NCBI RefSeq assembly: GCF_021917145.1
Contig: NC_061070.1
Coordinates: 19,126,959 to 19,190,958 of the forward strand
DNA length: 64,000 nucleotides
From: Hypomesus transpacificus
Lineage: Eukaryota > Chordata > Actinopteri > Osmeriformes > Osmeridae
Reading direction: 5' to 3'
Shown here: piece by piece, positions 1,898 to 57,300 of the stretch
Layout of the letters: each line of letters starts with the position of its first letter
Numbering within the stretch: position 1 is the stretch's first letter
The notes under the pieces: generated by a model
Databases searched by the model: none
Seen by the model: only the letters and a program-made list of their open reading frames with translations
Told to the model about the DNA's origin: nothing
Program-made: the position numbers and the translations under genes

Positions 1898-4800
1898 TTA
1901 CTGAGACTGCTGTTGTAATGCAGTTGGGTTTTTTGGCATGAAAACTTCAAGTTCCTTCGCAATCTCTTCAACATCTGGTCGTTCTGCAGGGTTCTTGAAG
2001 AGCATTTTCCTGATGATACGATGCTACAGGAGAGGCCCAATTATTTATTAATTTTACAATTTAACATAGTTAAACAACTGAATTAGATGCTTACTGAGTT
2101 CATAAAACATATATTGAACATATACATTCAGTCCAATGGAACTTCTCACCTCTGGGCTGTACTTGTTTTTGAAGTCTCCAGGAAAGACTTGTCTATGTAG
2201 ATCTTCAAACAGCTGTGATGTCAAGGTCACACAGAAGTGTATTAAGTTGAAATAAACTAATTTAAACAAATGAACATTGAGGACAACACCAAACACATTT
2301 AAATGTGAGACTCATTCAAGAGTAACAGTTAAATCTGGTCAATGTTCACCTTCAATTTCTCTGAAACAGTTGGCATTTTCCACAAAATCTCAAAACAAAT
2401 CAGTCCAAGGGCGTAAATGTCAGTTTTCTTGTCATAAACCGTCTCTGTCTTCTGAAAATGCAGTGAGTGATTTAAGTATCTGTGGCCATTTAACATGGGA
2501 TGATATAACGGTTACATTTATAACACTACACGGTAACAAACATGATTACCTGCTCAGGGCTCATGTAAATCAGTGTTCCTGTTTCTGAAGTGCGACGGAC
2601 AGGACTAGAGCTGGCGATGGTAACGTGCCCAAAATCTCCAATCTTCAAAGTCTCATCTTCTCCAATAAACATATTTTCAGGCTTTAAATCAAAAATCAAA
2701 ACACAATGATGTAAATGAACATGAAAATGCTTCATAAGTCATGTGTCATGTCTCATTTTGCTGCTGGAAATGGAAGAAAAACCTTGGGTTCTCCAGTACC
2801 TTCAGATCTCGGTGAATGTGTCCTTTAGAGTGGATGTATTCTACTCCACTGACTATTTGGCGAAACATGTGGAGTGCCTCAGCTGTTTTTAATTTATTTT
2901 TTGTTCCTTCATTCCTTTTTTTGATCCAGTCATTGAGGGTTCCCTTTTCACAGAACTCCATTTTAATGAACAGGCAAGACAAGTCTCTTCCACTGAGGAG
3001 AAACACACACACAAAACACTGTGTTTAATGTAAACCGGATTATTACATATTTACATTATTAATTTACTAACTTCCACTGGATGTACATTTTATTGCATAC
3101 CTTTTTTCAGCTCCATTCGCTGAGCTGCAGGAGTCTTTTTGGTCTGAACCAGTTCGGTATTGGGAACTCCTGGGAGATATAGAGAAATACAAATGTAAAC
3201 TAGAACTAAATATTACCTTCCTAAATATCTAGCCAGGTTATATGACTTCAAGGGTACAAAGTGTTCTGAAGGTAAGTTATCAGGGTACGTAGGTGTGCTC
3301 ACGTTGTACTGTCATCATCGTCAAATTCATTAATCCAAAAAGCCTCTTCATCCCAAGACGTGAAGTAACTAACGATGTTCGGATGCCTGAACGTGGCCAG
3401 TGCTTTTATCTCCCTGCTGGCCTTTCTGTAAGACATGAAGATGCATTAGGGGCCCATTGACTGACTGAGCAGACATGCATATCTGATCTTATTAACAGGA
3501 AGTTAGGCCTGTTCTTTCTGTGTGGTGTAGGAGCAATGCTTTAATTTTAATTGCAGTTAAGGTTATGAGGAAAAAATGATGTGTCATCTATATAACTATA
3601 GATAAAACACTTTAAGTTGCCTGTGAAACAGGGTTGTAATTGTACTGTGCTGTGCTGCAGTGTCCCATACAGTACATGGTATTCTCTTACCTTGTATACT
3701 CCAAAATCTTCACTGCATAGATGTTGCCATCCAGCTTGTGTTTGGCTTTGACAACACACCCAAAGCCTCCTGCTCCTAGCACAGACACCAGGTCAAAATC
3801 TCGGAAGAACCTACAAAGACAAATACAGATGGTGAGAACCTGTTTCAAATTCAAACACATCCACAACTCAGTGGCAAACGTTTCATACTTATCTCCTATT
3901 ACATGAACAATTTGCAATAATGTAGTCATAACCTGTACCTGGAGTCTTCCTTCAATTTGATGGAACAATCTTGAAATGTCCTTCAGAAAGAATTAACACA
4001 ACATTAAAAATGGTTATACTGTTCGTTCGTTATCTGCCACTTGTCCGGGGGTCGGGTCGCGGGGAGCAGGGAGGCCCAAACTTCCACCAGCTCTTCCTGG
4101 GCGACCCCGAGGCGTTCCCAGGCCAGCCGAGAGACATAGTCCCTCCAGCGTGTCCTGGGTCTTCCCCGGGGCCTCTTCCCAGTGGGACGTGCCCAGAACA
4201 CCTCACCAGGGAGGCGTCCAGGAGGCATCCTTAAAATGCCTGCGGCCGCTTGTATTTGCGATCTCGTTCTTTCGGTCACTACCCACAGTTTGTGACCATA
4301 GGTGAGGGTAGGAATGTTATACTGGTTATACTGTACAGAATGCTATTATCTCATTTACATATTTGTACATTACCCTTTATATTTTATCAGGCGGCCTCCT
4401 CCCTTCGCTCCATCAACCTTCCACAACCTTTTCACCACTCCGCTTCTACTCAAGCCATGCAGACACTTGGTCACTTCACTTTGTGGCACGCCCAGCTTTG
4501 CTGCTAGGTGAGATGATTTCATTCCCTTGCTTCTGCCGTCTGATAACAGCAGATTTTTTAATTTAGCCGCCAAAGCATCCGTTGGTTCAGACTTCTTCTT
4601 GGTGGATGCAGAACGCTTCCGATAGGACCAAAGAGGTGAAGTTTGATTCCTGACCGACAGCCCCGTTTCCTGTAGCCGGTATAAGACAGTGTTTTACCTC
4701 TCTGATGGTCGTCAGGGCATGGTTTGCCATCAATTTTAATAAGACTATGAGCTACCAGTCCACTAGCTTATAGTCTTATTGAAGTGTCAGTTTTAAGAAC

Positions 4801-6037
4801 TACAGGTATCAACGTTGTAAAGCTATATAACCGGTGCACAATCCTGCATTTGTTCTTTAAATTGATGGCAGACCATGACCATGGCTGAGAAGCACACAAA
4901 TATTGTTGGATTAACAAGGAGGACTGAATAAGCAAAGAAACTAGTCAAAATATGTTTACAACTAAATTACATTTAGCAAGTTAAGAAATAAGCCTTTCGC
5001 ATCTGGACTGCTGTATCATTATAGCATTATTATTTACTAATTATTTAATGATCTTCTGATATCAGTCAAAATGACACTGGAGCCCAACAGGTTGGGTGTA
5101 TCAAGATGATCAAGATGGTCGTCATGGTAGCATACATCAAGAAAGACAGAGCAGCACATCAAGGGATGGGTATCAGATAGATTAAAATATAATACTATAT
5201 TAACTTACGTGTGTTTTTGAGGAGGATGTTGCAGGTTGTGGGCTTGATGGGCTATTCTCATCATTTGGGGTAGGTCCTACAATATCAATTAAACAAAACA
5301 TTTTACCACGAGTCACCATTTGTTGTTATTCATATTAATGACAGAGTTTCAAAAATGGCTTACCATCAGAATCTGAAACAGCCAAAAACCGCGATGTACG
5401 ATCATTCCCAACTCTCTGAAAATATGATATTGTATGATAAATATGAAAATAAACAACTGTAAGGGAAACCAACTAAAATTACAGTATTAGGCATATTAAA
5501 TCAATTTGATAGGCTACTGTTTAATTAATTTAATTATCTTCATTGTTATGAGCTGTCCTTTAACTCGATTCATATTGTCAACCCAACACTACTTCTAACT
5601 TCAACAACGTTCAGATCTGCAGTGTCTGTATTTAGTCAATGTTTATGCTAACAAAGGAGGCCGCAGGACTAAAGCTCACATAATTAGGGGATTGGTAGCG
5701 GACAGGTTAATGAATACAATATAAAACGGAATCGTGGAATGCTCCGTTGCCTTTTACAGGCGTTTCATTATTAACAAAGGTGTTTCATTATGACAGGGGA
5801 GCGTTATCTTTTCAAACAACGTTAACGCGCCATTTCTACACGTCCAGTGTCCCTACAACAACTACAAACACAACAGCGATAACGTTACCCAAGTAATGTT
5901 GAAGCTTTCTAACTTACTGGTTCAAGAAGCTTCTTTAATGGTGGAATATAATCTGAATGAAGCCCACGTAAATTATTATTAGAGGCTACATTGTCAGAAA
6001 TATCACAAAAAACATTCTTCCGTTTATGTTCTTCCAT
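1898..6037 (-). CDS. PKZ-like eIF2-alpha kinase, copy A (rearranged; proposed chimeric 5' end)
   Basis: Role: Z-alpha plus eIF2-alpha kinase family. Kinase and linker exons, all open and in phase: 1898-2023 (stop TAA), 2150-2212, 2350-2451, 2550-2681, 2800-2992, 3101-3169, 3303-3425, 3691-3810, 3939-3980. Motifs seen: LGAGGFG, YAVKIL, HIHRDLKPEN, KIGDFG, GTLIYMSPEQ. The exon from 4374 carries one Z-alpha domain. Upstream, the first Z-alpha is truncated by an in-frame TAA near 4695 and the ancestral start is inverted (see 4716-4920). A start that restores an open protein uses three upstream exons (5918-6037, 5364-5415, 5209-5276) joined to an acceptor before 4669. All phases then fit, giving 501 aa. 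The kinase part is firm; the chimeric 5' end is inference. The alternative is a 5'-dead pseudogene. Unlike B and C, exon 7 has two extra codons and intron 1 carries a LINE fragment. Confidence 0.65.
4021..4322 (-). mobile_element. Non-LTR retrotransposon 3' fragment in copy A intron 1
   Basis: On the minus strand an open frame encodes the C-terminal tail typical of fish Rex-like LINE reverse transcriptases (MTERTRSQIQAA, RMPPGRLPGEVFWARPTGKR, RPRTRWRDYVSRLAWERLG). An internal part found in longer family members is missing between QIQAA and RMPPG. An 11-bp direct repeat, tggttatactg, flanks it at 4011-4021 and 4323-4333 and is present once in copies B and C. This is a 5'-truncated insertion specific to copy A. 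Confidence 0.85.
4716..4920 (+). other. Inverted ancestral 5' end of PKZ copy A
   Basis: Plus-strand 4784-4912 matches the minus-strand promoter, 5' UTR and first codons of copies B and C: cagttttaagaac, gtaaagctatat, aattgatggcaga, then atggctgagaagcacacaaa (M-A-E-K-H-T-N). In copy A this block therefore points away from its own kinase. The plus-strand frame stops after 16 codons. A second copy of the UTR end (4716-4737, minus orientation) and a 16-bp inverted repeat (4738-4753 and 4765-4780, 15 of 16 matching) flank the junction and look like an inversion scar. Confidence 0.8.
5209..6037 (-). CDS. Three small in-phase coding exons, unrecognised protein
   Basis: Exons 5918-6037 (starts ATG at 6037, donor GTAAGT), 5364-5415 (donor GTAAGC) and 5209-5276 (donor GTAAGT) join without a stop into 80 residues that begin MEEHKRKNVFCDISDNV and end in a Ser/Pro-rich stretch (SPSSPQPATSSSK). 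No domain is recognised; it looks disordered apart from a short motif LHSDYIPPLKKLLEP. The last exon ends in phase 0, which matches the in-frame acceptor at 4671/4670 before the Z-alpha exon of copy A. It may be the 5' end of copy A, or the remains of another gene or transposon. The region 4921-5208 between them shows no further exon. Confidence 0.5.
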
Positions 6038-6261
6038 GATGATTTAAAAAAGACCGGGAAATTGCTTCAGCGATTCGCGAGACAAGTAAGCGATCACAGC
6101 TTCAGAAACAAACCCACAAGCCTAATACTATTATCAATCTGAGCCTTTAACATACAAACTGACCAAACTCGACCCTTTACTCGATCTAACCCAATTGTTA
6201 TTCTTAGCATATAGGTTATTCTCAATTGTTAGATTAATTATTCCGAATTATTTTATTTGTT
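6038..6261. other. Possible promoter region of the captured exons
   Basis: This is a unique 0.2-kb stretch between the ATG at 6037 and the minisatellite at 6262. It has a GC-containing core (gcgattcgcgagacaagta) and AT-rich flanks. No ISRE of the GAAANNGAAA type was seen. A promoter role is inferred only from position. Confidence 0.25.
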
Positions 6262-9200
6262 GTCTGGAGCGTCTGGGAGGGCTGGGTACTGTAGTCGTCT
6301 GGGAGGGCTGGGTACTGTAGTCATGAACGTCTGGGAGGGCTGGGTACTGTAGTCATGAGCGTCTGGGAGGGCTGGGTACTGTAGTCTGGGAGGACTGGGT
6401 ACTGTAGTCTGGAGCGTCTGGGAGGGCTGGGTACTGTAGATGAGTCTGAGGATGTTTAGCTGCACCAACAGCTCCCCCTGGTTTTGCTGCCATCCACAGA
6501 GTGCCACTGATTTAACATTGGGAGGGCAGAAAGCGCCCTCTAGTGTCAGAAGAAAGCACTGCATGCTGAGAGATGCTCTGCAGTTCACTAGCTCACGCAC
6601 GAGTGATGTACACAACACAAGATAGTAACTGATGAGAGGGAATATCCAACTATTCACTTTAATACATTTTTTTTAGTCAAAATACAGATCCTTAAGACAA
6701 GGTCAATCATTATTTATCAGACCGTTATTACAGTAAACATGATTGTAGCTTAATAACGATGATCTTTGTTATAATGTACTGTTTTAAAAGTACCTGAAAG
6801 TACAGCATTTTGCATAGTGTATGCAAGATGCACTATGCTAGCTAAAGCTAGTCATCTAGCAGAAGCCTTTATATGAAAAGACAAACAGAAGAAGGATTTT
6901 AACCTGCAACCTGCAATTCATTTCAAATGTATATCATACTTAAAAACAACAATAGTTGTCCAATGTGCTGTTCAATGTGTTTGCAGAACCACAAAATACA
7001 ATAAAACCGTCTGTAAAACCCAGTAAAACATTGATACCCAAAAGACATAACAAACAACAGAGAACATTACAAGTTGTAGCATAGAGAGAAAATATGCGTT
7101 TTTAACATGGATCTAAAAATATGTTGTGTTGGAGCAGTTTTGATAGAGGTCGGTAAGCTGTTCCAAAGTTTAGGTGTCACTATAGCGAACACTCAATAAG
7201 ACCTAGATTTGAGCTTTGACTTAATAAGATAATCAACATGACAACAATTACTCCATTGGAAAAATAATTTAGCCAGTCTCATATCTAGGCATTCCAAGTA
7301 CAATCTTTTGTTTAAATCCTGCTACACATTTTCATTAATCTGTCAATCGTTTGTTTTCAAACATAAATGACCAACCCACATTTCCTACAGCTGTTCAATA
7401 TAGTTAATATACTGAACAAATGTCTCCAGACTCTTGGGCCTGGCTAGGCAGGAGCAGCCAGTGGTGCCTCAAACAGACTTCTGTTCTAATGCAGTCGAGT
7501 TCCTTAGCAGAAAGTCTTCAAGGTACTTCGCAATCTCTTCAACATCTGGTCGTTCAGCAGGGGTGTTGGAGAGCATTTTCCTGATGATACGATGCTACAA
7601 GAGAGGCACAATTATTTATGTATTTTACAATTTAACATAACAACAGAAGTGCTTACTGAGTTCATAAAGTAAACAGTAAACATTCAGTCCAATGGAACTT
7701 CTCACCTCTGTGGCGTACTTGTTTTTGAAGTCTTCAGGAAAGACTTGTCTACGTAGATCTTCGAACAGCTGTGCCACACAGAAGGGTATAAAGATAGTGA
7801 GTTGAAATAGAAACAGGATTCAAATGAACATTGAGGCCAACACCGAACACATTTAAATGTGAGACTCATTCAAGAGTGAGTTAAATCTGGTAAATGTTTA
7901 CCTTAGATTTCTCTGAATCAGTGGGCATTTCCCACAGAATCTCAAAACATATCAGTCCAAGGGCGAAAATGTCAGTTTTGTCGTCATAATCCGTGTCTGT
8001 CTTCTGAAAATGCAGTGAGTGATTGAAATATCTATTGCAATTTAACATGGGATGATATAACTGTTACATTTATAACACAACACAGGAACAAACATGATTA
8101 CCTGCTCAGGGCTCATGTAAATCGGTGTTCCTTTATCTAAAGTGCGACTAACAGGACTAGAGTTGGTAACGTGCCCAAAATCTCCAATCTTCAAAGTCTC
8201 ATCTTCTCCAATAAACACATTTTCAGGCTTTAAATCAAAACACAATGATGTAAATAAATATGAAAATGCTTCATAATTCAAGTGTCATGTCTCATTTTGC
8301 TGCTGGAAATGGAAGATAAACCTCAGGTTCTCCAGTACCTTCAGATCTCGGTGAATGTGTCCTTTAGAGTGGATGTATTCTACTCCACTGACTATTTGGC
8401 GAAACATGTGGAGTGCCTCAGCTGTTTTTAATTTATTTTTTGTTCCTTCATTCCTTTTTTTAATCCAGTCATTGAGGGTTCCCTTTTCACAGAACTCCAT
8501 TTTAATGAACAGGCAGGACAAGTCTCTTCCACTGATGAGAAACACACAAACAAAACACTGTGTTTAATGTAAACTGGATTATTAAATATTTACATAATTA
8601 ATTTACTAACTTCCACTGGATGTACATTTTATTGCATACCTTTTTTCAGCTCCATTCGCTGAACTCCAGGAGTCTCTCTGGTCTGAACCAGTTCGGTATT
8701 GGGAGCTCCTGGGAGATATAGAGAAATACAAATGTCACCTAGAACTAAATATTACCTTTCTAAATATCTAGCCAGGTTATATGACTTCAAGGGTACAAAG
8801 TGTTCTGAAGGTGAGTTATCAGGGTACGTAGGTGTGCTCACGTTGTACTGTCATCATCGTCAAATTCATTAATCCAAAAAGCCTCTTCATCCCAAGACGA
8901 GTAGTAACGAACGATGTTCGGATGCCTGAACGTGGCCAGTGCTTTTACCTCCCTGCTGGCCTTTCTGTAAGACATGAAGATGCATTAGGGACTACATAGG
9001 ACTACATACTTGAGGAGTGAGTTTCACCACACACCGGCTACAGATGCATAAGTTAGGCCTTTTCTTTTTGTGTGGTCTAGGAGCAATGCTTCACTTCAAA
9101 TGTAATTGCAGTTAAGGTTATGAGGAACAAATGAGGTGTAATATATATAACTATATATAAAACACTTTAAGTTGCCTGTGAAACAGGGTTGTAATTGTAC

Positions 9201-10265
9201 TGTGCTGCAGTGTCCCATACAGTACATGGTATTCTCTTACATTGTATTAGCCAAAATCTTTACTGCATAGATGTTGCCATCCAGCTTGTGTTTGGCTTTG
9301 ACAACACACCCAAAGCCTCCTGCTCCTAGCACAGACACCAGGTCAAAATCTCGGAAGAACCTACAAAGACAAATACAGATGGTGAGAACCTGTTTCAAAT
9401 TCAAACACATCCACAACTCAGGGGCAAATGTTTCATACTCATCTCCTATTAAATGAACAATTTGCAATAATGTAGTCATAAACTGTACCTGGAGTCTTCC
9501 TTCAATTTGATGGAACAATCTTGAAAGTACCTTCAGAAAGAATTAACACAACATTAATCATGGTTATACTGTACAGAATGCTATTATCCCATATACACAT
9601 TTGTACATTACCCTTCATATTCTATCAGCTGGCCTCCTCCCTTCGCTCCATCAACTTTCCACAATGACGTCTCCCCCAACCTCTTCACCTCTCCACTTAT
9701 ACTCAAGCCATAAAGACACTTGTTCACCTCACTTCGGGACACGTTCAGCTTTTCTGCTAATTGAGATCGTTTCATCCCCTTGTTTTGGCCGTCCGATAAC
9801 AGCAGCTTTTTTAATTCCCCTGCCAAAGCATCCGTTGGTTGAGAGTTCTTCACAGTGGCGGCTAAGCACTTCTGACGGGCCCATATGGGTGGCTGGTCGG
9901 AATTCCTGAACAGCTGCCCCGTTTTCTCCAGCCGGTATAAGACACTGTTGACATCACTGGCTTTCTGCAGGCCAACACCTTTCGCTATTTGGAGTGCTGT
10001 GGCTCCGTCCTCTTTGTCGTTCAGAAAGGTACATATTTTGTTTTCCAGGTCATTGTTTGTGTGCTTCTCAGCCATCGTCTGCCATCAATTCAAACAACAA
10101 ATACAGAGATGTCGCATCGTTACAACATATAGCTTTACAAAAACGATACACGGTTCTTAAAACTGAGACTATACCCCACCACCAATAAATGATCTAATGA
10201 GGAGCAGAAGATCGCACTCAAAGTATCACTACAGGTGAGTAGCCACTACTAACACTAACTGTGGT
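6262..10265. repeat. Segmental duplication unit 1 (carries PKZ copy B)
   Basis: This unit runs from a minisatellite (6262-6440) through the 3' flank, PKZ copy B and part of its 5' region, ending at aacactaactgtgg near 10263. It repeats at 10266-14205 with offsets of 3940-3945 bp and very few differences, so duplication was recent or the copies are being homogenised. The 3' flank at 7100-7468 holds about 300 bp not present in copy A and with no gene seen. Confidence 0.95.
7469..10075 (-). CDS. pkz: Z-DNA-dependent eIF2-alpha kinase PKZ, copy B
   Basis: Predicted 475 aa. Exons (5' to 3'): 9612-10075, 9489-9530, 9241-9360, 8842-8964, 8640-8708, 8339-8531, 8102-8227, 7902-8003, 7706-7768, 7469-7594; every junction keeps phase and the stop is TGA. 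Two winged-helix Z-alpha domains (about residues 8-68 and 86-145) have the Z-DNA contact set: N43, Y47, P62-P63, W65 and N118, Y122, W139. Kinase: glycine loop LGAGGFG at 180, K203, kinase insert with a DDDDST stretch, HRD D335, DFG D353, activation end GTPIYMSPEQ. Known role of the family: binds Z-form nucleic acid in the cytoplasm and phosphorylates eIF2-alpha to shut down translation during infection. Start chosen at the first ATG, which begins the Z-alpha-1 exon. The upstream interferon-type promoter of copy C is missing here. Confidence 0.93.
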
Positions 10266-13200
10266 TACCGTAGTCTGGGAGGACTGGGTACTGTAGTCTG
10301 GAGCGTCTGGGAGGGCTGGGTACTGTAGTCTGGGAGGGCTGGGTACTGTAGTCTGGAGCGTCTGGGAGGGCTGGGTACTGTAGATGAGTCTGAGGATGTT
10401 TAGCTGCACCAACAGCTCCCCCTGGTTTTGCTGCCATCCACAGAGTGCCACTGATTTAACATTGGGAGGGCAGAAAGCGCCCTCTAGTGTAAGAAGAAAG
10501 CACTGCATGCTGAGAGATGCTCTGCAGTTCACTAGCTCACGCACGAGTGATGTACACAACACAAGATAGTAACTGATGAGAGGGAATATCCAACTATTCA
10601 CTTTAATACATTTTTTTTAGTCAAAATACAGATCCTTAAGACAAGGTCAATCATTATTTATCAGACCGTTATTACAGTAAACATGATTGTAGCTTAATAA
10701 CGATGATCTTTGTTATAATGTACTGTTTTAAAAGTACCTGAAAGTACAGCATTTTGCATAGTGTATGCAAGATGCACTATGCTAGCTAAAGCTAGTCATC
10801 TAGCAGAAGCCTTTATATGAAAAGACAAACAGAAGAAGGATTTTAACCTGCAACCTGCAATTCATTTCAAATGTATATCATACTTAAAATCAACAATAGT
10901 TGTCCAGTGTGCTGTTCAATGTGTTTGCAGAACCACAAAATACAATAAAACCGACAGTAAAACCCAGTAAAACATTGATACCCAAAAGACATAACAAACA
11001 ACAGAGAACATTACAAGTTGTAGCATAGAGAGAAAATATGCGTTTTTAACATGGATCTAAAAATATGTTGTGTTGGAGCAGTTTTGATAGAGGTCGGTAA
11101 GCTGTTCCAAAGTTTAGGTGTCACTATAGCGAACACTCAATAAGACCTAGATTTGAGCTTTGACTTAATAAGATAATCAACATGACAACAATTACTCCAT
11201 TGGAAAAATAATTTAGCCAGTCTCATATCTAGGCATTCCAAGTACAATCTTTTGTTTAAATCCTGCTACACATTTTCATTAATCTGTCAATCGTTTGTTT
11301 TTAAAACATAAATGACCAACCCACATTTCCTACAGCTGTTCAATATAGTTAATATACTGAACAAATGTCTCCAGACTCTTGGGCCTGGCTAGGCAGGAGC
11401 AGCCAGCGGTGCCTCAAACAGACTTCTGTTCTAATGCAGTCGAGTTCCTTAGCAGAAAGTCTTCAAGGTATTTCGCAATCTCTTCAACATCTGGTCGTTC
11501 AGCAGGGGTGTTGGAGAGCATTTTCCTGATGATACGATGCTACAAGAGAGGCACAATTATTTATGTATTTTACAATTTAACATAACAGAAATGCTTACTG
11601 AGTTCATAAAGTAAACAGTAAACATTCAGTCCAATGGAACTTCTCACCTCTGTGGCGTACTTGTTTTTGAAGTCTTCAGGAAAGACTTGTCTACGTAGAT
11701 CTTCGAACAGCTGTGCCACACAGAAGGGTATAAAGATAGTGAGTTGAAATAGAAACAGGATTCAAATAAACATTGAGGCCAACACCGAACACGTTTAAAT
11801 TTGAGACTCATTCAAGAGTGAGTTAAATCTGGTAAATGTTTACCTTAGATTTCTCTGAATCAGTGGGCATTTCCCACAGAATCTCAAAACATATCAGTCC
11901 AAGGGCGAAAATGTCAGTTTTGTCGTCATAATCCGTGTCTGTCTTCTGAAAATGCAGTGAGTGATTGAAATATCTATTGCAATTTAACATGGGATGATAT
12001 AACTGTTACATTTATAACACAACACAGGAACAAATATGATTACCTGCTCAGGGCTCATGTAAATCGGTGTTCCTTTTTCTAAAGTGCGACTAACAGGACT
12101 AGAGTTGGTAACGTGCCCAAAATCTCCAATCTTCACAGTCTCATCTTCTCCAATAAACACATTTTCAGGCTTTAAATCAAAACACAATGATGTAAATGAA
12201 TATGAAAATGCTTCATAATTCAAGTGTCATGTCTCATTTTGCTGCTGGAAATGGAAGATAAACCTCAGGTTCTCCAGTACCTTCAGATCTCGGTGAATGT
12301 GTCCTTTAGAGTGGATGTATTCTACTCCACTGACTATTTGGCGAAACATGTGGAGTGCCTCAGCTGTTTTTAATTTATTTTTTGTTCCTTCATTCCTTTT
12401 TTTAATCCAGTCATTGAGGGTTCCCTTTTCACAGAACTCCATTTTAATGAACAGGCAGGACAAGTCTCTTCCACTGATGAGAAACACACAAACAAAACTC
12501 TGTGTTTAATGTAAACTGGATTATTAAATATTTACATAATTAATTTACTAACTTCCAGTGGATGTACATTTTATTGCATACCTTTTTTCAGCTCCATTTG
12601 CTGAACTCCAGGAGTCTCTCTGGTCTGAACCAGTTCGGTATTGGGAGCTCCTGGGAGATATAGAGAAATACAAATGTCACCTAGAACTAAATATTACCTT
12701 TCTAAATATCTAGCCAGGTTATATGACTTCAAGGGTACAAAGTGTTCTGAAGGTGAGTTATCAGGGTACGTAGGTGTGCTCACGTTGTACTGTCATCATC
12801 GTCAAATTCATTAATCCAAAAAGCCTCTTCATCCCAAGACGAGTAGTAACGAACGATGTTCGGATGCCTGAACGTGGCCAGTGCTTTTACCTCCCTGCTG
12901 GCCTTTCTGTAAGACATGAAGATGCATTAGGGACTACATAGGACTACATACTTGAGGAGTGAGTTTCACCACACACCGGCTACAGATGCATAAGTTTTCT
13001 TTTTGTGTGGTCTAGGAGCAATGCTTCACTTTAAATGTAATTGCAGTTAAGGTTATGAGAAACAAATGAGGTGTAATATATATAACTATATATAAAACAC
13101 TTTAAGTTGCCTGTGAAACAGGGTTGTAATTGTACTGTACTGTGCTGCAGTGTCCCATACAGTACATGGTATTCTCTTACATTGTATTAGCCAAAATCTT

Positions 13201-14205
13201 TACTGCATAGATGTTGCCATCCAGCTTGTGTTTGGCTTTGACAACACACCCAAAGCCTCCTGCTCCTAGCACAGACACCAGGTCAAAATCTCGGAAGAAC
13301 CTACAAAGACAAATACAGATGGTGAGAACCTGTTTCAAATTCAAACACATCCACAACTCAGGGGCAAATGTTTCATACTCATCTCCTATTAAATGAACAA
13401 TTTGCAATAATGTAGTCATAAACTGTACCTGGAGTCTTCCTTCAATTTGATGGAACAATCTTGACAGTACCTTCAGAAAGAATTAACACAACATTAATCA
13501 TGGTTATACTGTACAGAATGCTATTATCCCATATACACATTTGTACATTACCCTTCATATTCTATCAGCTGGCCTCCTCCCTTCGCTCCATCAACTTTCC
13601 ACAATGACGTCTCCCCCAACCTCTTCACCTCTCCACTTATACTCAAGCCATAAAGACACTTGTTCACCTCACTTCGGGACACGTTCAGCTTTTCTGCTAA
13701 TTGAGATCGTTTCATCCCCTTGTTTTGGCCGTCCGATAACAGCAGCTTTTTTAATTCCCCTGCCAAAGCATCCGTTGGTTGAGAGTTCTTCACAGTGGCG
13801 GCTAAGCACTTCTGACGGGCCCATATGGGTGGCTGGTCGGAATTCCTGAACAGCTGCCCCGTTTTCTCCAGCTGGTATAAGGCACTGTTGACATCACTGG
13901 CTTTCTGCAGGCCAACACCTTTCGCTATTTGGAGTGCTGTGGCTCCGTCCTCTTTGTCGTTCAGAAAGGTACATATTTTGTTTTCCAGGTCATTGTTTGT
14001 GTGCTTCTCAGCCATCGTCTGCCATCAATTCAAACAACAAATACAAAGATGTCGCATCGTTACAACATATAGCTTTACAAAAACGATACACGGTTCTTAA
14101 AACTGAGACTATACCCCACCACCAATAAATGATCTAATGAGGAGCAGAAGATCGCACTCAAAGTATCACTACAGGTGAGTAGCCACTACTAACACTAACT
14201 GTGGT
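10266..14205. repeat. Segmental duplication unit 2 (carries PKZ copy C)
   Basis: This is the second 3.94-kb unit, starting with a shorter minisatellite (10266-10383). It diverges from unit 1 right after actaactgtgg at about 14203: unit 1 continues into the minisatellite, unit 2 into unique promoter sequence. Copy C is therefore probably the parental copy, with B made by unequal exchange at the minisatellite. Confidence 0.9.
11414..14015 (-). CDS. pkz: Z-DNA-dependent eIF2-alpha kinase PKZ, copy C
   Basis: Predicted 475 aa, same gene structure as copy B. Exons: 13552-14015, 13429-13470, 13181-13300, 12784-12906, 12582-12650, 12281-12473, 12044-12169, 11844-11945, 11648-11710, 11414-11539. Differences from B that I noticed are few: V44 to A and R48 to Q near the Z-alpha-1 recognition helix, Y to C just after the Z-alpha exon, L to V before the DFG loop (DETVKIGDFG), and D to E in the activation loop. 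All Z-DNA contacts and catalytic residues are kept. It is the only copy next to a canonical ISRE (14418-14432), so it is the best candidate for the interferon-inducible PKZ. Confidence 0.93.
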
Positions 14206-14369
14206 GGTTGTTGGGAGAGTTAGTTAAATCATGAGCTAGCGAGCATATTACATCTGACAACTCACTTCACAAATTCCTCCTAAACTAATTTAAACTTGTC
14301 ATATATTTTTATTTTAGACGTGTCTAATTCAACTCACCGGTTAGTGGTAAACAACGCAGACTACTCACC
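14016..14369 (-). other. Probable 5' UTR intron of PKZ copy C
   Basis: On the minus strand a donor GAGGAG/GTGAGTAG ends at 14369, and an acceptor tttgaattgatggcag lies 3 bp before the ATG at 14015. Together they suggest a short noncoding first exon just upstream of 14369 spliced to the Z-alpha exon. Only the part up to 14205 was copied into the other units. Confidence 0.45.
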
Positions 14370-14417
14370 TCCTCAGACGACTTGCGGACTTGCGGATCAA
14401 TTTCCAGAATTTATCAG

Positions 14418-14432
14418 TTTCAGTTTCATTTC
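14418..14432 (-). promoter_or_regulatory. Tandem ISRE upstream of PKZ copy C
   Basis: Minus strand reads GAAATGAAACTGAAACT, which contains a perfect GAAANNGAAACT interferon-stimulated response element with a third GAAA half-site. It lies about 50 bp upstream of the proposed first-exon donor and 0.4 kb from the start codon. Teleost pkz genes are known to be interferon-induced. Confidence 0.75.
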
Positions 14433-15253: not shown

Positions 15254-18200
15254 TCAAAGAGTTTGGTTGGCTTTAAGGCTGTTTTGATCTTTTGACGGGA
15301 CAACATAAGATCCAAGTTCAGTGACCAGCTGTTTGGCCTCTGGCCTGTCCTCGGGGTGTTCCTTCAGCATTGACTCCATCAGCTTTTGCTGCAACACAAC
15401 AACAGGTGATCAGGGACCAATCACAACAACAGGTGATTAGGAACAAATCAAATGCAAAGAGTGGAATGGTAGGGCAAAATATGAAGTCCTGCTGGCGGTC
15501 TGTGAAGTTGTTAAACTTGAAGTTGTTAAGCTCCGTACCTCAGGGGCATACAACACAGAGAAGTTGTTAAGCTACGTACCTCAGGGGCGTACAACACAGA
15601 GAAGCCCTTGGGGAATATGTTGCTCCTCACGTCATACCAGACCTGTACATGGAATACAGACAATGCAATAACAGTCATTTGCTTTGATGCATACAACAAA
15701 ATAATCCAAAATTATAAAGATTGTGGAATGAAAGAGAAGCCATGGGTACAGTTCGATAAACTTACTTTGTTTTTTTCCGCAACAGTGAATAGTTTCCAAA
15801 GTAGTTCGAAGAAGATCAAACCTAAAGCAAAGATATCTACTTTCCTATCGTAGGTGCTCGTGTTGATCTGTCAAACACAAGACAGAACCGAAGCAACAGA
15901 ATCATGCTAAATGTTTGTTACAATGTGGGTTTAGCTGATTGCAAGCTTGGGAATTATAAGTCAAATACAGTCAAATGCTATATAACTTAAAACTGTGGTT
16001 AAAACTTACATTTGTATTGACCTGGACATTCATGTCTAATGACCTTATATACCTGGTTAGAGATACCTGGTATACTGTTATATAGAAGTTACCTGTTCAG
16101 GTGCCATGTAAGACCTGGTTCCAGTGCGCTTGGTTCGCTCAATAAGGCTTTCATCATCGTCGTCATTCTCTGTGGTTGCCAGGCCAAAATCCCCAATCTT
16201 CACCTTTTCATTACCGGCAAACATTATGTTAGAAGGCTGAAAGAAGACAACCAATCATGTTAGAAGGCTGAAAGAAGACAATCAACTCATGTTAGCAGGT
16301 TGAAAGAAGACAACCAATCATGTTAGAAGGCTGAAAGAATACAGCCAATCATGTTAGCAGGCTGAAAGAAGACAACCAATGGGAAAACTACACATACAAA
16401 TAACGCAAAAAAAAAAAAAAACACTTAACAGACGCCTCTGTTAAGATGACACTTGACTGACCTTAAGGTCTCTATGGATGAGTTTATTTGAGTGGATGTA
16501 CTCGACTCCATGAAGGATCTGCTGGATGATGCCCTGACTCATCTCCCTTCGTTTGAGGTCCCGTTCTGCATTTCTTTCATCTATCCAAGTTTTCAGGGTC
16601 TTACCACATAGTTCCATCTGGATGTAAAGGAACTTCGCAGACGCATCGCTGCCGGAACTAAACTCATAACAAACATTTACTAATGAGAAAAGCATTTGAA
16701 TTGGCAGCTGGAATGATCATTTATATTCTCTTTGCAGCTTTCACTGTTTACACATATTGAACAATATTGATGTTTACTGTGAAGTGCTGCCACTGTCTGA
16801 GGTGTTGGCACATTTGTACTCTATGTCTTCCATCCAGGTTGTGTAGTAACGTACTATGTTACAGTGCTCGAGGCGTGCCAACGCATCGACTTCTCGGATA
16901 GATTTTCTGAGAGCAAACAGAATCACATAATCAAGCAGTCGTCACTGATATATGACCAAAGAAAATGTGTTTTATCAAGTCGAAGGTTTGGCTCCTCCAA
17001 AACTACTCACGCTTTACTCCGCACAATCTTCACAGCATAGTATCTTTTGTCTATCTTTAGACGGGCCTTGTACACGTGCCCAAAGCCACCTTTGCCCATG
17101 CGTTCAATGGAATCAAAGTCAGTTGAGAACCTTTTTGAGAGAAAAAATATGAATAAGTATTACTTTTAAGACAGGATTTAGTATCACAGTTTGCACTGAA
17201 TTTCAGTGACTCAAATAGTACCTTGAGACTGGTTGATTATTTGGATGGTTAGCAAACTGGAAATTGGGTGCAAGTCTGAGAGGACAGGAGAGGACAGGAG
17301 AGGGGTCTTTAATAACACAGTAAACAATAACAGTAAAATATGGTAATAAATAAAACATAATAGAAAAGGGGAAATCACTTTATCTTAGGCTTTGCATCTT
17401 GATGATTTTTTTTCTGTGTAAACAAGAATAGAATGAGGATTCATAAAGGGTTTCATCTGTGTATTTTATATTCTACAGGCAAGTAATGTACTAATTAATA
17501 AATAGCACTTTGCAGCAGGCATAGAAAATGATTATGATCTGTTTAGAAAACAGAAAGACTTTTAACCTGGCTGGTGTTAGTTGATTCTGCAAACACTACT
17601 GATTGTGTATCACTGGTCGCCATGCTTTGGGGTGTGGTGTCACATGACTCCCTGGTGTCACATGACTCCCTGGGACACAAGAGGAAACAGATACATTTAG
17701 ACCGTAGTACCAGTCTCTCCACCTGCTGTACTGTCCAGTGCCCAGTCTACTTCAGGGCTTCACAACATCGCTCCCACACACACACAGACACACACACACA
17801 TTCCATACCCCGTTCTTGAACTTTGTGAGGGAGAAACTTCATCTTCGGAAACGTTTGAGGACACCTGAACAGAAGATTACATTTCGTAAGTTAGTAATAA
17901 CATCTGTAATGATGTAAACATCTACCATGATAGCAAACACAAGAACAACAACAAAACACAAAACTCGCAGCTGAAATGTGGCATTGTAATGCTTGTCTGT
18001 TGTTGCGGTGATGCTATACTGGATTAGCTAGACTAGCTACCTGGCTGTTCCAGTCCGGCTGCTCCTGGAGGGCCAGCCATGTCAGCTCAGCAGCCAGCTG
18101 CTTGGCGCTTTTGGCTGTCTTCCCCACCCCTTCTGGATACTCCTTACTGCCCATAACTACCTTGTAAACAAATCTTAACATCAAACAAAAATCAGTTAAA

Positions 18201-20122
18201 CTACAGTTGGATAAACGTCTTCAATATGACACGGTAGAAAAGGGGGAGATGGGAGGATAGTAAACCTCCCAACATTCAAACACCAACGATGTTTGACTAT
18301 TATTTATGTTGTGTTGTGTTGTGTTACTTCAACCACCGCTGTTTAAACTAAATCTACACCCTTGTACTGTGTAGTAAGGAGTACACAGCTACACCTTTGC
18401 CCTGTGTAGTAAGGAGTATACAGCTACACCCTTGTACTGTGTAGTAAGGAGTATACAGCTACACCCTTGTACTGTGTAGTAAGGAGTATACAGCTACTCA
18501 ATGAGGATCATGCGATGGACCACGTCTTTCCACTAATATGTAATCGTGAACCAGCTTCGTTTTCTGACAGTAGTGGTTCAGGATTCCTATGAAGTTGGTC
18601 TCTGTACAGTTGGGTTGTTCTGTTGGAGAGTCCATGCTCAGGTTTTGAACCACAGAACTGAACACAAAAAAATCCCCACCAATGGTATATTGTTAGTAAT
18701 GTTGTAAAGATCATTACATTTGAAAACAATATGGCTTAGATGGCAAGCATTAAGTAAAAAACAACAACTTAAAAACAAGGGACATTGTTGTGACTGACCT
18801 TGTGGACCGCGTTTCTTGGCTCCAGTCCTTGTTTTGTGGTGATGGGTTAGCCTTGCTGTTTTCTTCTACAGTCTGAGTCAAAAGTTTTGTCACTTACTAG
18901 ACCGATGTAGAGCTAGTTGCATTTATACAGATATTAGTGTACAGTATTTGTATATCCTGAAATGTATATAAAGCAGCAAACTATTTAGTGTACTGCTTTG
19001 GCATTTTTCTCATGTTTGGAGGGAAATTAAGCCAGGGGCGTATTTAAACGAACATTTTGAAAACCATAAATATTTCACCCCTACTTTTCATTTAAAAAAT
19101 CAAATTTAACGGCTGCATCCTCAGTCTGTCCCCCCACATTTGAAAACAATACTGAGTGAAACGTAGTTTAACACCTTACCCCTGTGGTGTGATTATTGTT
19201 TATCATCTCATAGACAAGCTTGGCTGCCTCCTCCTTCGCTTCCTTCTTCGTGTTCCCAAACGCCGTTGGGCACTCTTTATCACCAACCACCACGCAGCAA
19301 CAGCATCTACAGGAAATCACAAAAGGATTATATTTAGTCCTTTTTAACACTGGTTCAACACTGGTTCTAGAATCACTCTGAAGCGTTTGAAGACTTACTG
19401 CATGTGATTGTTTTCCGCCACCCTTGCGGATTCAGAGTACTTGACAGAGATCCTGTTTTTCTGTCCATATTCATTGAGCCAGCATGTGAAGTTGGCAGCA
19501 TTAATCACTTGGACGAGAGGCGAGGGCGAGCCCCTAAGTGAAACGTTCTAGGGAAGACACATTTCTTTGTTACACAATGAAAGTCGAGGCCAGGTTTATA
19601 ATATAAGCCAGGGTCAGACAGCGGCCCTGGAGGACAGCGGCCTAGGGAAACATCTATAACATGCAGGACAGCGGCCCTCGAGGACCAGAATTGATAAACC
19701 CTTATATAAGCATTGGGCAATGCCCATGACATACAGTCTACCACTAGGATGGCACTGAGCATCTTACTGTATCGTTCGACTCAGTGTCCAGCCCATCCAA
19801 TGCGTTTTTTGCAGCATTCTGTTTTGCTTCCTTTTTGTTTCTCCCTGTCCCATTGGGATATATGTTCTTGTCTACAACTGCCCTGACGGTGAACCTGATG
19901 AATGAATAGATAAAGCGATTATCAATAGATATCACATACATCTTGAAGATATCCGGTATTCTACAGTATAGGCTACGTCTTACGTACAGTTGTTCGTACA
20001 ACAGAATCAACATACCTTTTAATATGATCCGGACCCTCTGCACCTACGTCTTCATACTTAAGTTCTGAACGCGTGCGCTGTGTATACTCATTCAGTTGGG
20101 CAATGTAATTCTTAGACTCCAT
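15254..20122 (-). CDS. eif2ak2: Interferon-induced dsRNA-dependent protein kinase PKR
   Basis: Exons: 20016-20122, 19768-19894, 19399-19547, 19180-19306, 18799-18872, 18502-18657, 18041-18173, 17809-17864, 17222-17275, 17011-17130, 16778-16906, 16462-16657, 16093-16236, 15766-15867, 15580-15642, 15254-15388. All phases agree; 623 aa if exon 6 is used. Domains: dsRBD1 residues about 5-72 ([19 protein letters not shown]), dsRBD2 about 91-165 ([18 protein letters not shown]), dsRBD3 about 211-285, then the kinase with GKGGFG at 340, K362, HRD D474, DFG D492 and [12 protein letters not shown]. Family role: binds dsRNA, dimerises, autophosphorylates and phosphorylates eIF2-alpha, blocking translation. 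Odd: the donor after exon 6 reads TT instead of GT, and skipping that exon would keep frame. Tandem repeats copy the exon 13 acceptor and exon 15 donor. Kinase exon sizes match PKZ (120, 102 and 63 nt), showing common origin. Confidence 0.92.
15520..15603. repeat. 41-bp tandem duplication of the eif2ak2 exon 15 donor region
   Basis: Two copies of a unit holding the last 25 or so exon bases, the GTACG donor and the start of the intron (gttgttaagctacgtacctc on the plus strand). The true exon uses the outer copy (15562-15603). The inner copy offers a decoy donor. Confidence 0.85.
16228..16380. repeat. 31-bp repeat copying the eif2ak2 exon 13 acceptor
   Basis: Five copies of atgttagaaggctgaaagaa plus agacaaccaatc. 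The first copy spans the real intron-exon junction (minus-strand ctttcag then CCTTCTAACAT); the others put four more copies of the same acceptor and first exon bases in the intron. Confidence 0.9.
18357..18497. repeat. 35-bp tandem repeat in eif2ak2 intron 6
   Basis: Four copies of gtagtaaggagtatacagct with acacccttgtactgt. The array starts immediately after the expected exon 6 donor site, which itself reads TT. Confidence 0.9.
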
Positions 20123-20480
20123 AATTTAACAATCGGTGAATCTGTTTCAGCGTCGCGTTCTGATAACGCCCCTTACAACAGCTGTCAGTGTGTCCATTCT
20201 TTAATTTCGTTTTGGATTACTTCAAATTAATGCAACGAAAGTTCATACTCTCGCGTATCCTCCCTCGCAAAACATTGATATGACTGGCTAGGTTTGAATA
20301 CGGAAATAGCAGGTCCATTCCATGTTTTAACTGTAAGACCAGTAGGCCTGTGCGAAGTTTTTTCTTCCCGAAACTGAAAGCGCTTTAACTTTCGATTTCC
20401 CCAAATGTAACCATGTCGGCCCCATGGCTCATCAGCGCCAGTACGCAGGAGCGGTTGATGCGGCGTCAACTCTTTATTGT
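20123..20480 (-). promoter_or_regulatory. eif2ak2 promoter with two opposed ISREs
   Basis: Plus 20370-20379 is GAAACTGAAA and 20390-20399 is TTTCGATTTC (GAAATCGAAA on the minus strand); both fit GAAANNGAAA perfectly and lie 250-280 bp upstream of the PKR start codon. Interferon induction of PKR through ISREs is established in vertebrates. Exact transcription start not visible. Confidence 0.7.
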
Positions 20481-21238: not shown

Positions 21239-23329
<2,091 letters not shown>

Positions 23330-24271: not shown

Positions 24272-44445
<20,174 letters not shown>

Positions 44446-45060
44446 CCCCAAACTCTCTCTGACTCTCTTCCTGTTTGGTGATGCTGTAGTTTAGTTTTTT
44501 TTTTTTTTTTATCTGCTGTTGGTTTTGTCAGTCTCCTGTAGTTATTTATTCTAGAACAAAATATACATCACTCTGGAGACGAAAGGCATGTACACTGAAA
44601 TATAATTTGAAGGCTCTTTTAATGTTGACTGTAGAGTCATTTGAATGTATGGTCATGGCATTTGAATGTGCTGTTTTGGTTTGAGATGTGGAATATGTAA
44701 AGGGGCATGTCATCTCATTAGATTCTCGTTATTTGCATTCCTTCTCGTTATTCCTAAGCCTAGTTGTTTGGGGCGGGTTAAAAATGTTATGAGGTCGTGC
44801 TTCAACATGAACATGCTCTAGTTGTTGACTATAATTATTTTCCATGGTAGTATGCAATCATGCGTGTACTTCTTGTTTGTTTAAGAATGTTTTTACTATC
44901 TCGTGAGATGATTCACTGCATCTAGGTAGCGTCAAACTTCATGTCTGTTAACCCTCAAGAATGTTACGTTTTATCCATTCCACTACAGCATGGGATGTCT
45001 CAATCTCATTCTGAAAAATTTGATTTTCTAATCAAGAGGTTAATAAAGAAATTCTAATTT
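44446..45060 (+). other. heatr5b 3' UTR with poly(A) signal
   Basis: Follows the TGA at 44443-44445. A poly(T) run lies near 44495. AATAAA at 45042-45047 is the first canonical signal, giving a 3' UTR of about 600 nt. Confidence 0.7.
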
Positions 45061-45651
45061 CGTCCTCATGGTTTGTAAATATTGTTTAGGAAGGATTATT
45101 GTTGGGGACCATTAGTAAAAGAATCAAGTCGTGAGAAATACCTTGTTTTGCCGATGTTATTAAAAGATGAAACAACTTATTTTTTTCGTATTTTGCTATG
45201 TTGAGTTTATGTATATCTTGCACACATTCCAAATTACTTAATTACTTGTATTCCGCTAATATGATTAATACGGGACTATCTAATAAATCTTGCAAAGAGA
45301 CATTTGAAAAGATCAATAAAGCAATCAAGGCATTTTTTTTTTGTTTATGTTGTGAAGTGTCATGCAATTTTGGGGGGGCAACGCTTCGAGTCTGCGAGCA
45401 CTGTGTGTTCACCGTGTGGCCCGCGAGCAGAAGAGCTCGGGGACTGTATTTTCTCCGGTACTACAGCACGCTGGGGGCGTGACCTCTCCGCCTGACGTCA
45501 TCCTGTGACTAGCTGTCAGAAAGTGAGTTCATTCCCGTAGCCGACATAGACGAGCTAGGTCGATACTTTTTGTCCTTCCGCTAGCTAGTTGTAGTCAAAG
45601 ACCTCACGAATAACCACAAACGGCTTCTCCTTCTTTAAACCGAGCCCGGCC
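45061..45651. promoter_or_regulatory. Intergenic spacer and strn promoter/5' UTR
   Basis: Only 0.6 kb separates the heatr5b poly(A) signal from the striatin start codon. The last 250 bp are GC-richer (tgacgtcat CRE-like site near 45494-45502) and fit a housekeeping promoter. Confidence 0.5.
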
Positions 45652-54300: not shown

Positions 54301-57300
54301 CATTATTAAACCACCTTTTGTCACACAATTTCTGTGTTGATTTATGAAAGAGTTGTCTAGGTTTCCCTCATGTTGGGTCTTGTCTAAACCGACGGGTTCA
54401 TTCCAGTGTCTTTTCCATGTGAACCGATCCACTAGATGAATCAGGCTTCATGTCAACAGCGTTGGAACTGACACTGCTGAATCCCCTTCAGTCGGAGGTC
54501 TCGTCTGTGTCAGCACTATTGCACAGGAAGCACCTCCTCCCATCACTAGTTTGTATTCTCACCCCATCTCTGTTCACAGGGGCTTCTAGGCACCAGCGCT
54601 TTGAAGTGTGGACAGAGAAGGAGAGGGAGGAAGGAATGAGAGAGAGGGGGGGGGGGGGGGTGGACAGAGGGCAAGGGAGAAGGAAAGAGAAAGGGAGAAA
54701 GTTAGGGGGAGAGTGAGGCAGAGGGAGAGGGAGGCAGAGGGAGAGGGAGGCAGAGGGAGAGGGAGGCAGAGGGAGAGGGAGAGGGAGAGGGAGAGGGAGA
54801 GGGAGAGGGAGAGGGAGAGGGAGAGGGAGAGGGAGAGGGAGAGGGAGGCAGAGGGAGAGGGAGGCAGAGGGAGAGGGAGAGGGAGAGGGAGGCAGAGGGA
54901 GAGGGAGGCAGAGGGAGAGGGAGAGGGAGAGGGAGAGGGAGAGGGAGAGGGAGAGGGAGAGGGAGAGGGAGAGGGAGAGGGAGGCAGAGAAGGAGAGAGA
55001 GTGAGGCCGAGAGAGAGAGTGAGGCAGAGAGAGGGGCAGAGAGTGAGGTAGAGGCAGAGAGAGGTGTTGGGTTAAGAGGTGACGGGGTGTGTGGGGTAGC
55101 TGTGTGTGTGAGGGTGCACCTGCCTGCCCCCCCTCCAGACACAGCCTCATTTACCCCCCATTAGCACACGTCTGCTCTTACTCTACTGGATGAATGAACA
55201 AGACATCATCCCCCCAGGGCCCTCATCCCCCAGGGCCCTCATCCCCCAGGGCCCTCACCCAGGGCCCTCACCCCCCAGGGCCCTCATCCCCCAGGGCCCT
55301 CACCCAGGGCCCTCACCCCCCAGGGCCCTCACCCCCCAGGGCCCTCACCCCCCAGGGCCCTCACCCCCCCAGGGCCCTCACCCCCCAGGGCCCTCATCCC
55401 CCATGGCCCTCACCCTGGGGGGCTGGGGGCTGGCCTGGGGTGTGGACAGTCTTCCAGGCTCTGCAGACTGGAATGGTTTGGGCATCAGCTTTTTGTTAGC
55501 ACAGCAAATACGTCATGTCGTCGTAAGACCAGTTTAAAGCAGCACAGGAATTAGGATGAATAAGAAGCGTCATGAAATATTGAGCTTCTCTACAGCGACT
55601 GTGTTGCTGTTTCAGTTTGAGCAGAGAGGATGAGCTCCCTAATGTGCTAGGTGTATGATGTGGGTTCTTGGTTGTGTTGAAGCTTTCAGATGGTTCTCTG
55701 GGGTCGAATCACGTCTTCTTTATCCCCTCAGTCCTGCTGGTGTTGGTAACACATTCAGAATTTGACTCTAAAAACCTAAATAACATAATGAAGCCTTACT
55801 CAGCCGGATAACTGGGCTGCATTTGACTTCACTTGACTGACATTGATGGGGGCTTGAGGGAAGGTTATACTTGCACGGAAAATCAGAAGTTAAAAGTCAA
55901 TTAAGTTTCACAACGGTAATTGTATGTGGATATTTCCGTTGCAGCCGGGCTCCGAGGGCCTACAATAAGTACCAGTGTAGCTAGTTTCAACAGAGGAAAC
56001 TCCCACTATTTAGAGCAGATGAGCGTCGATCATGTTCCACAGCCCCCAGGAGCTCAGCATGTTTTGACTTGGAAAAACAATCCAGAGATGTTTTGCAGAG
56101 TTGCTGCTGCAGTGTGACATCTCCAGTGGACTGTGTGTGCAGAGTGGGGTCACTGTTGTGTCTGCTGTGCGGTCATCTCTGTGTTCTGTGCTGTGTGGTC
56201 ATCTCTGTGTTCTCAGAGGAAGCCAACGAGAACGAGACCACAGGTTCTCTCAACAACCAGCTGTCCTGGAGACAGGGTCGACAGCTCCTCAGACAGTAAG
56301 TAGAGTCACACATACAGTGCCCTCCAAAAGTATTGGAACAGTGAGGCGAATTCCTTTATTTTTGCTGTAGACTGAAAACATTTGGGCTTGACATCAAATA
56401 ATGAACGTGAGACCAGAGATCAACGTTTCAGCTTTTATTTCCAGGTATTTACATCAGGATCTGATGCACAACTAAGAAAATATCACATTTTGTTTGAATC
56501 CACCCAATTGTCATGTGATCAAAAGTATTGGAACAGATATACTTAAAACATATTTAAGTGAATAAGACTTAATATTTAGTTGCAAATCCTTAGCTTTCAA
56601 TAACTGCAGCAAGTCTGTGACCCATTGACGTCACCAAACTTTTGCATTCTTCCTTTTTGATGCTTTCCCAGGCTTTCACTGCAGCCTCTTTCAGTTGTTG
56701 TTTGTTTTGTGGGGTTCCTCCCTTCAGTCTCCTCTTAAGCAGGTAAAATGCATGCTCTATAGGGTTTAAGTCTGGAGATTGACTTGGCCAGTCTAATACC
56801 TTCCATTTCTTGCCCCTGATGAACTCCTTTGTTGTTTTGGCAGTGTGTTTTGGGTCGTTATCTTGCTGCATGATGAAGGCTCTGCCAATCAGTTTGGTTG
56901 CATCTTTCCTTAAATTGGCAGACAAAATGTTTCTGTAGACTTCCGAGTTCATTTTGCTGCTGCCATCATGTGTTACATCCTCAATGAAGATTAATGAGCC
57001 CGTCCCAGAAGAAGCCATGCAAGCCCAAGCCATGACATTACCTCCACCGTGTTTCACAGATGAGCTTGTGTGTTTGGGATCATGAGCAGTTCCTTTCTTT
57101 CTCCAAACTTTAGCCTTTCCATCACTTTGGTAAAAGTTAATCTTTGTCTCATCAGTCCATAAAACTTTGTCCCAGAATTTTTGAGGTTCATCTCTGTACT
57201 TTTTGGCAAATTCCAGCCTGGCCTTCCTATTCTTCTTGCTAATGAGTGGTTTGCATCTTCTGGTGTAGCCCTTGTACTTTTGTTCATGAAGTCTTCTGCG

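Follow-up and report, generated by a model that had tools for sequence, protein, structure and literature searches.

What becomes of an innate immune kinase gene whose own start codon and most of whose sensor have gone? The question is raised by a 64,000-nt stretch of the Hypomesus transpacificus genome (NC_061070.1, positions 19,126,959–19,190,958; hereafter the window, with positions counted from its first nucleotide), the minus strand of which carries a PKR gene and three copies of PKZ (C, B and A) arranged head-to-tail. The eIF2-alpha kinases have a common catalytic domain and differing sensors (that is, PKR for double-stranded RNA (dsRNA) and PKZ for Z-DNA, in addition to GCN2, PERK and HRI), and copy A is a PKZ paralogue with three short candidate exons (a–c) ahead of it. 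A first-pass annotation of this DNA had proposed that copy A may have captured a new promoter and amino terminus. We put the probability at slightly under one half (about 0.47) that copy A is a PKZ paralogue that is both chimeric and sensor-less, in which exon c would be spliced into an acceptor at 4669. If true, this would be a natural case of a new eIF2-alpha kinase member starting out, after loss of the sensor and replacement of both front and promoter, for which the intact copies B and C alongside would serve as built-in controls.

An open frame through an intact kinase

The structure of copy A as first described was confirmed. Exons a–c (120, 52 and 68 nt) hold 80 open codons that end in phase 0 and, joined to the 296-nt Z-alpha exon (4374–4669) and nine further PKZ exons, give 501 codons and a stop, with GT/AG at all borders of the chain (all nine PKZ-A introns have retained theirs). 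The predicted 501-residue protein through an intact kinase was thereby verified in both its frame and its splice borders. Exons a–c and the kinase lie on the same strand and meet phase 0 to phase 0. As in PKZ, the kinase domain is of the PKR type, complete with catalytic residues and insert; its best match in the PDB is PKR (6d3k, E = 1.8e-66), and phosphorylation of eIF2-alpha by copy A is putative.

Loss of the original start and Z-DNA sensor

Positions 4783–4900 carry the 5' region of PKZ in inverted orientation (75% identity to 10056–10170 of B), linked by inverted repeats to a correctly oriented 28-nt remnant of the start at 4715–4742. Because the residual start reads ATG CCC TGA, the old start of copy A is dead, and, judged from this comparison, it is a local inversion that destroyed it. 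Homology to B picks up again from 4693 downwards, a point that we take to lie inside the third helix of Z-alpha-1, and most of that domain is gone. The earlier statement that copy A had lost its start and first Z-alpha was therefore right for the start and for most of Z-alpha-1, but the last part of the domain remains in the Z-alpha exon.

The second domain is altered too: two of its three Z-DNA contact residues are changed (N to T and Y to H) and five wing residues are missing; the conserved Z-DNA contact positions of Z-alpha are described as Tyr, Asn and Trp (PMC3834819). The Pfam z-alpha family matched B at 3.5e-21 and did not match A at E 0.01, nor does it feature in the list of 10 families (E up to 10) obtained with the first 178 residues of copy A. 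A low-confidence structure model of the remnant (mean predicted local distance difference test score (pLDDT) of 58) has three helices, and a fold search returned Z-alpha entries among weak matches (best overall E 0.15), which is indicative only. Copy A does not have the two N-terminal Z-alpha domains that are a trait of PKZ.

A gene-like segment upstream

Between the inversion and a minisatellite that begins at about 6260 lie 1,350 bp that match neither B nor C and contain exons a–c. The ATG of exon a stands in a strong context (A at −3 and G at +4, as read from the sequence). With splice sites scored by matrices of vertebrate consensus frequencies, and with first-order Markov sequences matched in length as the null, a three-exon chain was present in 0/500 null sequences under a strict rule whose cut-offs were fixed post hoc at the observed scores, and in 1/300 and 2/300 under looser cut-offs. 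Among real tiles of the window, the strict rule fired in 4/94 (2/94 with a phase-0 end), all on the plus strand within 24319–37829, which we take to be the region of a HEATR5-like gene. Under the looser rules, 9/94 and 13/94 tiles reached the observed score; 8/9 and 10/13 of these fall on the coding strand of one of the assigned genes (PKZ, PKR and the HEATR5-like gene), and 1/9 and 3/13 lie outside. As most of the firing tiles sit on coding strands of assigned genes, the rule mostly detects genes, and exons a–c look like a real gene start.

By codon log-odds, a statistic that tells little here, the reading frame of the 80 codons is the best among the six, and the front that it encodes is Ser/Pro-rich. 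The front had been called unrecognized, and this was borne out: the 80 residues matched no family in Pfam or NCBIfam and no entry in the PDB, and none of 14 pattern matches among viral contigs was confirmed. The accompanying suggestion that it forms a new sensor finds no support in these searches.

Where, then, does the segment come from? Whole-genome searches (437 Mb in 376 contigs, with scoring limited to the best candidates and very common words skipped) found no second copy of exons a–c, whether by protein or by DNA. Within the segment, a relative of 6079–6241 (73%) lies on contig 363, and relatives of 6195–6258 (82%) lie on contigs 20 and 3. Because these searches gave no second copy of exons a–c and only the outer 180 bp (6079–6258) are repeated, the upstream segment has the look of a gene start present once, with a repeat-derived far upstream edge. 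The data support a single-copy gene start that was either moved here or is native; they do not support a captured duplicate of a gene still present elsewhere in this genome, and with no donor copy among the best candidates scored, the description of the promoter and amino terminus as 'captured' could not be upheld.

We consider it very improbable that exons a–c are transposable element coding sequence that came to lie upstream by accident. The outer 180 bp do have relatives on three other contigs, with a shared border at 6255–6258, but exons a–c themselves gave none of the multiple genomic copies of such coding sequence among the best candidates scored and match no family, and no inverted repeat pairs the two ends of the segment; with the repeated part limited to that outer edge, a transposon origin of exons a–c was set aside. 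Near both ends of the segment, near-identical 13-nt direct repeats (ATTGTTGGATTAA and ATTGTTAGATTAA, at 4902–4914 and 6225–6237, respectively) were noted by eye.

Promoter-like features

The stretch 5500–6199 has retained its CpG dinucleotides, with an observed/expected ratio of 0.99 as against 0.42 at 4670–4900 and 0.24 at 4905–5208. Elsewhere in the window, 19/1238 tiles of 700 nt reach this level, and they start at 13951–14301 (the start of PKZ-C), 19751–20051 (the start of PKR), 23051–23151 and 44951–45101. Ahead of exon a, TCTCGCGA is the single exact site of its kind in the window, and at least one site was present in 12/100 shuffles. It resembles the Banp motif TCTCGCGAGA, which is described as marking CpG-island promoters and, in zebrafish, as lying 20–70 nt ahead of the start of transcription (PMC9363121); we treat this site as a lead only. 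A scan of the window for the interferon-stimulated response element (ISRE), allowing up to 1 mismatch, gave sites at 14412–14427 (before C), 20384–20399 (before PKR), 24523, 54677 and 54683, and none near A or B. The interferon-response element that is a promoter trait of PKZ is thus lacking in copy A.

Copy A might also be expressed without exons a–c, from an internal Met or by read-through from another promoter, which would leave it with a truncated front. The first in-frame Met sits in the Z-alpha-2 remnant (..KGMKSS..), and, in the unspliced sequence, a TAA immediately ahead of 4669 shuts the frame (the A match contains 1 TAA), both of which would suit such a start. We nevertheless regard it as improbable, as it must ignore the gene-like upstream exons and a CpG value that other 700-nt tiles near A do not match.

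Possible splicing of exon c into the kinase

The junction on which the chimeric reading turns is the acceptor ctacag/GAAACG (AG at 4671–4670, first exon base 4669), where B and C have ctggag. This acceptor is in phase 0, as the first-pass annotation held, but is not simply absent from B and C: the AG itself is common to all three copies, and what is found in A only is the strong flanking context, which lifts the score to 5.7, as compared with −2.6 in B and −2.9 in C. At 5.74, the acceptor falls within the range of PKZ acceptors (2.95–11.66). In trials of unconstrained drift from B, which take the state of B as the older one, the same AG was lifted that high in 0.4–1.2% of trials, and any in-phase AG of the 91-nt stretch in 1.7–5.4%. 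No AATAAA is present on the minus strand from exon c to 3094.

Possible gene conversion and constraint

Divergence of A from B is uneven. The Z-alpha exon differs by 21%, introns 3 and 8 by 16% and 23%, respectively, and exon 10 by 17%, as against 1–7% for exons 2–7 and 3–5% for introns 2, 4 and 5. The conversion-like stretch (2600–3990 in A versus 8150–9540 in B) covers exons 2–7 with their introns and is broken in intron 3. Because exons 2–7 and several introns are nearly identical amid diverged parts, this mosaic suggests gene conversion. Outside the homogenized stretch, the frame is still open (synonymous divergence (dS) of 0.37 in the Z-alpha exon and 0.19 in exons 8–10). In a relative-rate test with the window PKR as the outgroup, from which columns with gaps or with B and C differing were left out, 7 kinase changes were A-only and 8 were B/C-only (p = 1.0). 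Relative to B, 3/3 exon indels and 3/10 intron indels are multiples of three (Fisher p = 0.07), the intron count leaving out a 312-nt insertion in intron 1 that is also a multiple of three. Since the kinase of copy A has decayed no faster than those of its intact sisters, these comparisons favour a function for copy A, albeit without proof.

Arguments against the fusion

Several observations weigh against the chimeric reading. The acceptors at 4923 and 4884 are nearer to exon c and stronger than that at 4669, and their use would give products of 131 or 118 residues. A better-scoring chain (36.7 versus 33.4), with the exon-b acceptor at 5456, is out of phase with 4669, and the log-odds of the 80 codons amount to −0.03 per codon, a value reached by 31% of 1958 stop-free 50-codon intergenic windows. 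The CpG signal stands out less when 300-nt tiles are used (51/1262 other tiles reach it), and the Banp-like site, besides matching at only 8/10 bases, is so near the ATG that transcription would have to start very close to it. Gene conversion, as the mosaic suggests, could keep exons 2–7 open without selection, and all intervals of the ratio of non-synonymous to synonymous substitution rates (dN/dS) contain 1 (0.66, 0.38–1.18 for the 306 codons of the kinase; 0.60, 0.36–1.05 for the Z-alpha exon; 0.70, 0.34–1.66 for exons 8–10), including those outside the homogenized stretch, where the ratio is 0.6–0.8. The earlier argument that the retained frame speaks against simple decay consequently keeps its force outside exons 2–7, where the frame is open, and loses it within these homogenized exons and in the face of such intervals.

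It is quite conceivable, if short of probable, that exons a–c are a real promoter and gene start that splices to 4923 or 4884, within or beside the inverted remains, yielding a short protein or a non-productive RNA, and that copy A is an untranslated pseudogene tidied by conversion from B and C. The 51 and 38 open codons that follow the two stronger acceptors, the higher score of the out-of-phase chain, the mosaic identity, the dead start of copy A and the ATTAAA variants on the minus strand at 5049 and 4740 would all be in keeping with this scenario, which has more difficulty with a Z-alpha exon and exons 8–10 that are open too, with in-frame indels only, and with kinase changes that are not more numerous in copy A than in B/C.

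Proposed origin and activity of a chimeric kinase

In the chimeric reading, a local inversion and deletion, as the sequence shows, took away the start codon of copy A and most of Z-alpha-1, and its immediate upstream neighbour on that strand is now a probable promoter followed by three short 5' exons. Exon c would be spliced into the acceptor at 4669, inside the former reading frame of Z-alpha-1, and the predicted product would join the Ser/Pro-rich front of 80 residues to a remnant of the winged helix that lacks two of three Z-DNA contacts, followed by the intact PKR-type kinase. The result would be an eIF2-alpha kinase freed of Z-DNA control, the expression of which would be set by a CpG-type promoter and not by an interferon-response element. 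Because PKR-type kinases are activated by dimerization, copy A may be active through kinase dimerization at a given dose or through a partner of its new front, or, alternatively, may dampen B and C through mixed dimers. Whether copy A represents a functional eIF2-alpha kinase of a third class in fish, next to PKR and PKZ (that is, one with no Z-DNA sensing, an unrelated single-copy 80-residue front and a CpG/Banp-type promoter, and either constitutive or tied to another input) seems to us doubtful.

The locus and its neighbours

The features discussed are collected in Table 1. A search of the genome with the Z-alpha exon (E 0.01) matched copies A, B and C only, and no further PKZ locus turned up with this query. 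Intron 1 of copy A holds the 312-nt insertion (4023–4334), which is not in B or C and resembles a fragment of some dispersed repeat. Minisatellite arrays (about CTGGGAGGGCTGGGTACTGTAGT) flank the PKZ copies at 190–560, 6260–6440 and 10263–10390, with boundaries judged by eye, and are a possible cause of the tandem duplication of PKZ. The upstream side of copy B (10262–10390), compared with 14160–14430 of copy C, ends by eye in such a minisatellite; copy B seems to be without the upstream part and ISRE-like site present in copy C, and may be silent or dependent on the promoter of copy C.

Table 1 Coordinates of features of the PKZ locus in the window
Feature	Position	Strand	Description
PKZ-A exon 10	1898–2023	−	Includes stop codon
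PKZ-A exon 9	2150–2212	−	
PKZ-A exon 8	2350–2451	−	
PKZ-A exon 7	2550–2681	−	DFG to SPEQ
PKZ-A exon 6	2800–2992	−	HRDLK
PKZ-A exon 5	3101–3169	−	Kinase insert
PKZ-A exon 4	3303–3425	−	
PKZ-A exon 3	3691–3810	−	Glycine loop, catalytic lysine
PKZ-A exon 2	3939–3980	−	
Copy A Z-alpha exon	4374–4669	−	Degenerate Z-alpha-2 preceded by the end of Z-alpha-1
Inverted repeats	4715–4783		28 nt at 86% with 4853–4880; 20 nt at 90% within 4735–4783
Inverted copy of PKZ 5' region	4783–4900	+	Covers start codon and end of intron; homologue in B at 10056–10170
Second competing acceptor, first base after it	4884	−	Score 6.60; 38 codons, same stop as 4923
Best competing acceptor, first base after it	4923	−	Score 8.30; 51 codons, then stop
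Exon c	5209–5276	−	68 nt, phase 0 end
Exon b	5364–5415	−	52 nt; longer out-of-phase variant would begin at 5456
CpG-retaining, promoter-like stretch	5500–6199		CpG observed/expected 0.99
Exon a	5918–6037	−	120 nt, ATG at 6037 to donor, 40 codons
TCTCGCGA	6075–6082	−	8/10 bases of Banp motif TCTCGCGAGA, 37 bp before ATG
Repeat-related stretch 5' of exon a	6079–6258	−	Shared border about 6255–6258
PKZ copy B	7469–10075	−	Intact, 475 aa, comparison copy
PKZ copy C	11414–14015	−	Intact, 475 aa; sole PKZ copy with upstream ISRE-like site
PKR kinase exons	about 15270–17140	−	

On the plus strand, the exon at 43897–44445 matches the LAA1-like C-terminal TPR family (PF25808), and because this match fits HEATR5 we take the neighbouring gene to be HEATR5-like, its name and extent being assigned from translations of open reading frames (ORFs); an assignment to GCN1 was dropped in view of the same match, and the ORF at 26408–26785 of this gene matched no Pfam family. 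HEATR5B and EIF2AK2 adjoin each other in human as well. On the minus strand, a 351-residue open frame at 56590–57645 resembles a Tc1/mariner-type transposase, and no other gene was recognized in the 10 kb beyond copy A from the ORF list and 4 kb read by eye, which is no real gene search.

Comparison with known systems

Among the titles listed in literature searches, none is on a PKZ of the make-up of copy A; this holds at the level of titles, and absence from print is not claimed. Zebrafish PKZ is described as having kinase exons of 120, 102 and 63 bp, and LFIQME(Y/F)C(D/E) is a published PKZ motif (PMC2291453, PMC7137213). The copies in the window resemble the PKZ of zebrafish, goldfish and grass carp: they are alike in the lengths of these three exons (as in zebrafish), in the kinase insert, in a motif (LFIKMEFCE) that is one residue off the published one, in having both Z-alpha domains within one exon in B and C, and in the head-to-tail tandem beside PKR, a placement that copy A shares. 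Copy A is unlike them in that most of Z-alpha-1 and an ISRE-like site are missing, Z-alpha-2 is degenerate and three candidate 5' exons lie ahead. With PKR (EIF2AK2), the closest relative of its kinase in the PDB, copy A shares this domain but not the dsRNA-binding domains. For chimeric genes of Drosophila yakuba, rearrangements are described that bring a promoter and start codon to other DNA (PMC6776367). The present case differs in that an innate immune kinase would be altered and that the genome searches turned up no donor for the 5' piece, yet the arrangement would be alike, with the promoter and translation start of one piece of DNA placed before the exons of another.

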